Shown here: positions 49,823 to 60,412 of the stretch, piece by piece
Position numbering within the stretch: position 1 is the first letter of the stretch
How the letters are laid out: every line of letters begins with the position of its first letter
DNA from: Calditrichia bacterium
GTDB taxonomy: Bacteria; Calditrichota; Calditrichia; RBG-13-44-9; J075
Assembly (NCBI GenBank): GCA_028284905.1
Contig: JANQQU010000030.1
Span: 1-64,000, forward strand
DNA length: 64,000 nucleotides
Direction: 5' to 3'
The notes under the pieces: model-generated
Databases searched by the model: none
Seen by the model: only the letters and a program-made list of their open reading frames with translations
What the model was told of the DNA's origin: nothing
Made by a program: the position numbers and the translations under genes

Positions 49823-49850
49823 GTAGAGAAAATTCATGAATTTTCTCTAC
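49823..49850. repeat. 28-bp perfect palindrome, copy 1
   Basis: A perfect self-complementary sequence with arms starting GTAGAGAAA around the core ATTCATGAAT. It lies 30 bases after the S9 peptidase stop and 32 before the merB-type gene. It is the same as copy 2 at 50606 except for two compensated arm positions. There is no T-run, so it is not an ordinary terminator. Confidence 0.9.
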
Positions 49851-49882: not shown

Positions 49883-50563
49883 ATGGATTTGAAAAATCAT
49901 CATGCCCATCTGGACCGGGAAATACGCCATTATGTTTATCAACAGTTGGCGCAATTAACCCGGGTGCCGGCGACAAACGATGTCGCTGCTCATTTCAATA
50001 TTCCCCGCGAAGATGTCCTTGCCGCTTACCAGCGCCTGGCGGATGGAAAGGCGCTGGTGTTGCAATCCGATGGTGAGATACTCATGGCTGAACCGTTTTC
50101 GGCGGTCCCAACAAATTTCGTTGTCGAAGCGGGTGGACAGTCCTGGTGGGGAAACTGCATTTGGGATGCACTTGGCGTTCTTGCGGCACTGCAAACAGAC
50201 GGACAGGTAATTACCACTTGCGGTGATTGTGGAGAACAGATGACCGTTACCGTTAGCGCGGGAGAATTAATAGCTCCCGAAGGGATTGTCCATTATGCAA
50301 TTCCCGCCAACCGCTGGTGGGAAAATGTTGTTTTTACCTGACGTACCATGTTGCTCTTCCGGTCGGAAGCTCATATCGATCAGTGGTGTAAACTATGGCA
50401 ACAACCACGAGGCGCAGCATTTTCCTTACAACAACAATGGGCGCTGGCGAAGACCTGGTATCATGATCGCCTGAATCTCAATTGGCGGCGAAAGACGCCG
50501 GGTGAGGTACGGCGGATATTTGATGATATCGGATTGACGGGGGCGTTTTGGTCGATTGATTGA
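49883..50563 (+). CDS. MerB-family alkylmercury lyase, probable selenoprotein (in-frame UGA = Sec153)
   Basis: Read through one TGA at 50339-50341, the product is 226 residues, a full MerB-type organomercurial lyase. Parts: an N-terminal winged-helix-like domain (1-70), PFSAVPTNFVV, and the catalytic block WGNCIWDALG (Cys and Asp three apart, as Cys96/Asp99 of the R831b enzyme). CGDCGEQMTV and NVVFT precede the TGA; RTMLLFRSEAHIDQW and a C-terminal WYHDRLNLNWRRKTPGEVRR...GLTGAFW follow it in the same frame. Ungapped alignment from the TGA to the Trp 15 residues on places it on catalytic Cys159. MerB cleaves carbon-mercury bonds; Sec would replace the second thiol. A nonsense mutation is the alternative, but the rest of the gene is intact and a SECIS-like hairpin follows. 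The ribosome site is weak. Confidence 0.78.
50356..50369 (+). promoter_or_regulatory. bSECIS-like hairpin in the merB-type gene
   Basis: CTTCC (50356-50360) and GGAAG (50365-50369) pair perfectly around the loop GGUC (50361-50364). The loop begins 19 bases after the TGA. The E. coli fdhF SECIS has its GGU loop at nearly the same distance and the SelB-contacting G-U in the same context. A few further weak pairs lie below the stem. It supports selenocysteine insertion at the preceding TGA. Confidence 0.65.
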
Positions 50564-50605: not shown

Positions 50606-50633
50606 GTAGAGACGATTCATGAATCGTCTCTAC
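50606..50633. repeat. 28-bp perfect palindrome, copy 2
   Basis: A perfect palindrome with arms GTAGAGACG and the core ATTCATGAAT, 42 bases after the merB-type stop and 44 before the end of the minus-strand AgmX-like gene. It matches copy 1 at 26 of 28 positions per strand pair, with changes on both arms that keep the pairing. Confidence 0.9.
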
Positions 50634-60265: not shown

Positions 60266-60380
60266 CCCGGAGCTTTTTGCTCCGGGCTAATTCGTTTCGG
60301 TCCTACGGACCTATACAATATACATTAGCCGAATAAAGCCCTGGAAGGGCGACCTATCTTAGCTCGGGACGTTAGTCCCG
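60266..60380. repeat. Array of short hairpins (REP-like)
   Basis: Four small stems follow one another: CCCGGAGC-TTTTT-GCTCCGGG (60266-60286), GGTCC-TAC-GGACC (60299-60311), GCCC-TGGAA-GGGC (60338-60350) and CGGGAC-GTTA-GTCCCG (60365-60380). This order recalls intergenic elements that I have seen in Bacteroidota and Planctomycetota genomes. There is no coding potential. Confidence 0.7.
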
Positions 60381-60412
60381 TGTATATTACCAAAAAAAAT
60401 TAGGGGGATTAG

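Follow-up and report, generated by a model that had tools for sequence, protein, structure and literature searches.

A predicted selenocysteine-containing member of the MerB lyase family in a Calditrichia genome and its relatives

Introduction

MerB is the best-known methylmercury-breaking enzyme and acts by protonolysis. Its mechanism uses Cys96, Asp99 and Cys159 (PMC4525700). In the 64,000-nt stretch of the J075 genome analysed here (the window), two adjoining reading frames in the same phase are split by a single TGA, and the original prediction was that together they give one MerB-type protein, with selenocysteine (Sec) in place of the second catalytic thiol. This locus raises the question of whether the TGA marks a damaged merB or a site of selenocysteine insertion. 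In the latter case, it must also be asked whether the protein, called Sec-MerB here, belongs to the MerB-like selenoproteins listed in reviews, and what it might act on. If the selenocysteine reading is true, a natural Sec version of the enzyme, carried by phyla that are common in soil and sediment, would be an organometal sink that has so far gone uncounted, because gene callers cut the frame at UGA and surveys of merB miss the Sec forms.

A single gene with an in-frame UGA codon

The features of the locus, all on the forward strand, are as follows.

49883 to 50563, forward: complete Sec-MerB gene, 226 residues (translation; Pfam MerB, 8.7e-29; AlphaFold; Foldseek)
49883 to 50062, forward: N-terminal helical domain with three helices, which MerB also has (secondary structure of the model; weak GntR/winged-helix matches)
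50156 to 50158, forward: Cys92 codon, equivalent to MerB Cys96 (invariant in alignments A1 and A4)
50165 to 50167, forward: Asp95 codon, equivalent to MerB Asp99 (at least 90% conserved in alignment A4)
50219 to 50230, forward: CxxC motif at residues 113-116 (CGDC), which close relatives keep without exception and some distant ones have lost
50339 to 50341, forward: UGA codon, predicted selenocysteine 153, equivalent to MerB Cys159 (TGA in 65 relatives, Cys in Cys forms; 5c17 alignment)
50354 to 50371, forward: predicted SECIS hairpin inside the coding frame (core stem 50356-50360 with 50365-50369, loop GGUC at 50361-50364, 19 nt past the UGA)
50450 to 50560, forward: C-terminal extension, residues 190-226, approximately WYxDRL..WRRKTPxE..F..LGLTGxFW, past the Pfam MerB domain and common to the Sec clade (alignment A1; 75-row tree clade)

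The frame opens with ATG at 49883 and closes with TGA at 50561-50563; its sole interruption is the TGA at 50339-50341, which falls on residue 153. The final TGA is the true stop of the gene, and the proteins of relatives end at the same point. The read-through protein scores 100.5 bits against Pfam MerB (PF03243; gathering cut-off 27; 8.7e-29). Both halves also match the profile separately, residues 72-150 with profile positions 1-82 and the second half with positions 87-125, so the proposal of one protein from two frames was right, as were its coordinates. This is the only MerB-family gene in the J075 genome.

The catalytic triad of the protein would be Cys92/Asp95/Sec153, with Sec for Cys in the last place. 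The first pair, originally recognised in the motif NCIWD, occupies the places of Cys96 and Asp99. The placement of the TGA on the Cys159 column had been reached by counting residues, and it agrees with a phmmer comparison with the PDB, which pairs residue 153 with MerB2's second catalytic Cys (5c17; E 2.3e-9).

An AlphaFold model built from a 44-row alignment, with Sec modelled as Cys, has a pLDDT of 97.4. When this model was compared by Foldseek, all eleven matches below 0.001 were MerB entries, with MerB 3f2f as the best (E 5e-11) and MerB2 5c17 at TM 0.65/0.71; identity to characterised MerB is about 20% in this comparison. Membership in PF03243 is therefore supported both by the gathering cut-off, which was passed, and by the MerB fold of the model. 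The C-terminal 37 residues lie past the Pfam domain and are conserved within the clade.

Conservation of the UGA codon

The first nine relatives, found by a scan of GTDB contigs in Acidobacteriota, Chloroflexota and Actinomycetota (38-56% identity), have TGA at the residue-153 column in 9/9 cases. A relative from the same bacterial family as J075 (L030) also has TGA there, and one from the same class (L029) has Cys. Wider sampling covered 400 Chloroflexota and 396 Acidobacteriota genomes, searched with a family profile, and 396 Actinomycetota genomes, searched with Pfam MerB; altogether, 65 TGA forms were examined.

When the rows of the tree are sorted by triad, 54 are Cys/Asp/Sec, 10 have Sec at both Cys columns and one is Cys/Glu/Sec. 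The remaining rows are Cys/Asp/Cys (36), Cys/Cys/Cys (5) and one degenerate form with Trp. Sec-MerB falls within a clade of 75 rows (support 99/97), which is made up of single-Sec forms, one group with two Sec residues and several Cys groups. The close Cys forms have Cys at the residue-153 column. Thus, the comparison of homologues gives Cys or Sec in close relatives, the lone exception being the degenerate Trp form. This clade member (L069, genome G613) has Trp (TGG) for Sec and a shifted first Cys, and on its sequence it is probably inactive; selB is still present in its genome.

Standard annotation can be misled by such genes. The gene annotated as 'merB' on plasmid 1 of Rubrobacter radiotolerans (NZ_CP007515; L185:2941-3407) is the truncated front of a Sec-type gene that has decayed: its frame stops at the Sec TGA, and both the SECIS and the downstream frame are degraded. 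Genomes carrying the family need re-annotation, and this plasmid entry is a typical mis-call.

The SECIS hairpin and the selenocysteine machinery

The published model of the bacterial SECIS requires a loop of 3-9 nt, a stem of 4-16 bp and a G in the first two loop positions (PMC13188914), as well as a distance of 16-37 nt after the UGA and a minimum free energy of at most -7.5 (PMC13188914). The hairpin CUUCC-GGUC-GGAAG agrees with this model, having a 5-bp core stem, the loop GGUC, which starts 19 nt after the UGA, and an energy of -10.3 kcal/mol for 48 nt. When the 62 nt after the UGA were folded as a single sequence, the best fold was not the SECIS hairpin and was no better than that of shuffled sequence; the case for the hairpin is therefore comparative.

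Among 39 single-Sec forms, the codons of F159-R160-S161-E162 are near-fixed (TTC in 39/39, CGG in 37/38, TCG in 37/38 and GAA in 35/39), in contrast to the other conserved residues of the same forms, whose third positions vary freely. Across 44 sequences, four of the seven pairs changed on both sides, and the covariation exceeds that of 500/500 shuffles and all six slid controls. Further compensated changes in the stem occur in Actinomycetota. The five core pairs are intact in 62/65 Sec forms and the loop GGTC is found in 63/65; the same five pairs are possible in 1/16 true Cys forms (row L088, in the wrong frame, was left out).

A search of the J075 genome for selA, selB and selC, the check suggested with the original prediction, turned up all three. 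The tRNA-Sec scores 73 bits, with ARAGORN agreeing, selB is present, and selA can be pieced together from two contig ends sharing an identical overlap of 99 bases. Across the family, selB is found in 41/43 genomes with TGA forms, as against 2/9 genomes with Cys forms and 39/60 control genomes of the same phyla in which the family has no match. In Fisher tests, the TGA genomes differ from the Cys genomes with p = 9e-6 and from the controls with p = 2e-4, values that are optimistic since related genomes are not independent. The TGA-form genomes without a selB match, G047 and G293, may be incomplete assemblies. The replacement of the second thiol by Sec is thus supported by the conserved TGA column, the SECIS hairpin and the presence of selA, selB and tRNA-Sec, and the gene almost certainly encodes a real selenoprotein, with Sec inserted at UGA 50339-50341.

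Relationship to known MerB-type proteins

Sec-MerB shares with MerB (PF03243; PDB 3f0o and 3f2f; MerB2 5c17) the fold, the equivalents of Cys96 and Asp99, and the site of the second metal-binding residue. It differs in having Sec for Cys159, a C-terminal extension, identity of only about 20% and no mer operon. The NCBI equivalog cut-offs for MerB are not reached (38.6 against 193, and 23.5 against 200). In NCBIfam (June 2026) the protein lies above no cut-off, and its best match is SaoL (NF040728), at 45.5 against 140.

That selenium-linked MerB-like proteins exist, as mentioned with the original prediction, is borne out by reviews. A 2026 review lists SaoL (NF040728, motif CU), which is MerB-like and serves as the organometallic lyase in the SAO system (PMC13188914, citing Haft and Gwadz 2023), and assigns it to an operon that contains six selenoprotein genes (PMC13188914). 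'Organic mercuric lyase MerB2' (PMC7435645) and 'alkylmercury lyase MerB-like protein' (PMC9312934) are listed among predicted selenoproteins, and the latter is equated with SaoL in PMC13188914. Like the present work, the listings of PMC9312934 and PMC7435645 name the MerB family as a predicted selenoprotein family; unlike it, their text on these entries gives no alignment, Sec position or SECIS. They may or may not include the clade described here. No mention of MerB was found in the main text of the earlier primary selenoprotein papers searched. A MerB-like selenoprotein is therefore already known from reviews, but the Sec-MerB clade falls under none of NCBI's curated subfamilies and has no shared neighbours.

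Cys forms of the clade, for example those on plasmids of Paraburkholderia (NZ_AP023181) and Sphingomonas (NZ_CP014169) and at L029, resemble Sec-MerB in length and in the C-terminal extension, and their two metal positions are both Cys. They differ in having Cys for Sec and Cys for Asp99, which gives C-x-x-C. The Sphingomonas form is annotated as an organomercurial lyase. Five Cys forms of the clade with this arrangement, C-x-x-C plus Cys, were observed (L183:3001-3654, L184:2998-3681, L029, L077 and L078), two of them on proteobacterial plasmids.

Genomic neighbourhood

The upstream neighbour of Sec-MerB is a dipeptidyl-peptidase-like protein and the downstream one is TonB-like; none of merR, merT and merA adjoins the gene. 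No recurrent neighbours were found around its relatives, where only MerB and the frames antisense to it recur widely. A MerA that passes the curated cut-off was not found in the J075 genome and occurs in 5/40 Sec-MerB genomes; MerA was therefore rejected as a partner. Since there are no adjoining mer genes and MerA is both rare in carriers and absent from J075, the classical mercury pathway is not indicated, and Sec-MerB appears to act alone, outside a mer operon.

On either side of the gene, at 49823-49850 and 50606-50633, stands a perfect 28-base palindrome, GTAGAGnnnATTCATGAATnnnCTCTAC; the window holds no further copies (expected 0.00). An Acido-Lenti-1 RNA (RF01687) lies at 60337-60382 on the reverse strand (41.4 bits).

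Alternative readings and proposed function

One competing view takes the gene for an ordinary merB whose TGA arose by nonsense mutation or sequencing error, or takes the product of 152 residues as the genuine protein. Standard annotation would stop at the TGA, as happens with the decayed Rubrobacter relative. However, the same TGA is found at the same column in dozens of species from several phyla, which rules out a sequencing error, and it is followed by conserved protein and by a frozen, covarying hairpin; the co-occurrence with selB points the same way. This view has a negligible probability, and comparison of the sequences already refutes it. Sequencing error, pseudogene and general reassignment of TGA were accordingly rejected as explanations; the protein and its family themselves end at TGA. 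It is also very unlikely that Sec-MerB is SaoL of the Sec-assisted organometallic (SAO) system. Both are MerB-like selenoproteins with one Sec, SaoL is the best NCBIfam match and it is a listed MerB-like selenoprotein (PMC13188914). The score of 45.5 bits is nevertheless far under the cut-off of 140. The SaoL model has 159 positions, and the protein is described with the motif CU and within an operon, whereas Sec-MerB has the motif FTU and stands alone; the two are set apart by score, described motif and context. None of the nine neighbouring proteins matches a Sao family, and the relatives have no recurrent neighbours. Membership in SaoL was rejected on score and on the context of these nine genes.

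A selenoprotein that is not an organomercurial lyase is a more serious contender. It might act on another organometal or organometalloid, or be a selenol-based metal scavenger or a redox enzyme. This is a tenable possibility, if the less probable one: no mer genes lie nearby and MerA is rare in carriers, characterised MerB is distant (about 20% identity), the protein has an extra C-terminal region and a CxxC motif, and some Cys relatives have Cys for Asp99. On the other hand, the equivalents of Cys96 and Asp99 are present in 54/54 single-Sec forms of the tree, and neither a scavenger nor a redox protein would need them. The best explanation, and a very probable one, is a lyase of the MerB superfamily in which Sec replaces the second catalytic Cys to form a Se/S pair, its substrate and catalysis being predicted from the family. 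By analogy with MerB, the protein is likely to be an organometal lyase, and the chance that organomercury is its main substrate is about even. The broader term is held more firmly than 'organomercurial lyase' because the genomic context names no substrate.

Selenols and their selenolates are more acidic than thiols, bind mercury more tightly and are stronger ligands for soft metals. In the mechanism proposed for Sec-MerB, SelB and tRNA-Sec would insert Sec at UGA 50339-50341 by means of the SECIS hairpin in the coding sequence. The selenolate of Sec153 would take the organometal, for which methylmercury or another organomercurial is a first guess. Cys92 and Sec153 would then hold the metal and the carbon would be protonated with Asp95, yielding a hydrocarbon and a metal ion, the latter to be handed to a thiol.

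Forms with two predicted selenocysteines

Ten relatives, in two lineages, have TGA at both catalytic Cys columns and would contain a Se/Se pair. The first lineage comprises three genes of one Chloroflexota genome (L051, L090 and L091), L089, and L166-L168 from Actinomycetota; the Asp99 column is Glu in most of them. In the three Actinomycetota genomes, the di-Sec MerB domain is fused to a C-terminal AAA ATPase (PF00004), as seen in the one of the three that was domain-scanned. The second lineage (L080, L082 and L085) is from Acidobacteriota and keeps the Asp. These three proteins sit on the canonical MerB side of the tree, so that the double replacement is counted as having arisen at least twice.

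The reading of the first UGA as Sec is supported by Cys/Sec exchange at this column: L088, the nearest relative of the first lineage, has Cys at the first column and UGA at the second. A possible hairpin also lies downstream of the first UGA, in a set of few sequences. No description of di-Sec MerB forms was found in the literature searched.

The same design, with Sec at the second metal position, recurs in dozens of unrelated bacteria, some of which have Sec at both positions. It is highly likely that this is a widespread MerB clade of mainly selenoenzymes, that within the superfamily the Sec/Sec pair arose in two separate lineages, and that the Sec/Sec forms are diselenol lyases acting on soft organometals outside mer operons. 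The series Cys/Cys, Cys/Sec and Sec/Sec within one fold would be a natural experiment on why selenium is used in a non-redox reaction.

One Acidobacteriota form (L082; L101:2743-9300, genome G649, contig C19) directly adjoins selA, a second copy of selB, and a selD that carries a fused domain of the carboxymuconolactone decarboxylase type (CMD, PF02627). A gene for a class III aminotransferase is found near some di-Sec forms (L101, L112 and L117).
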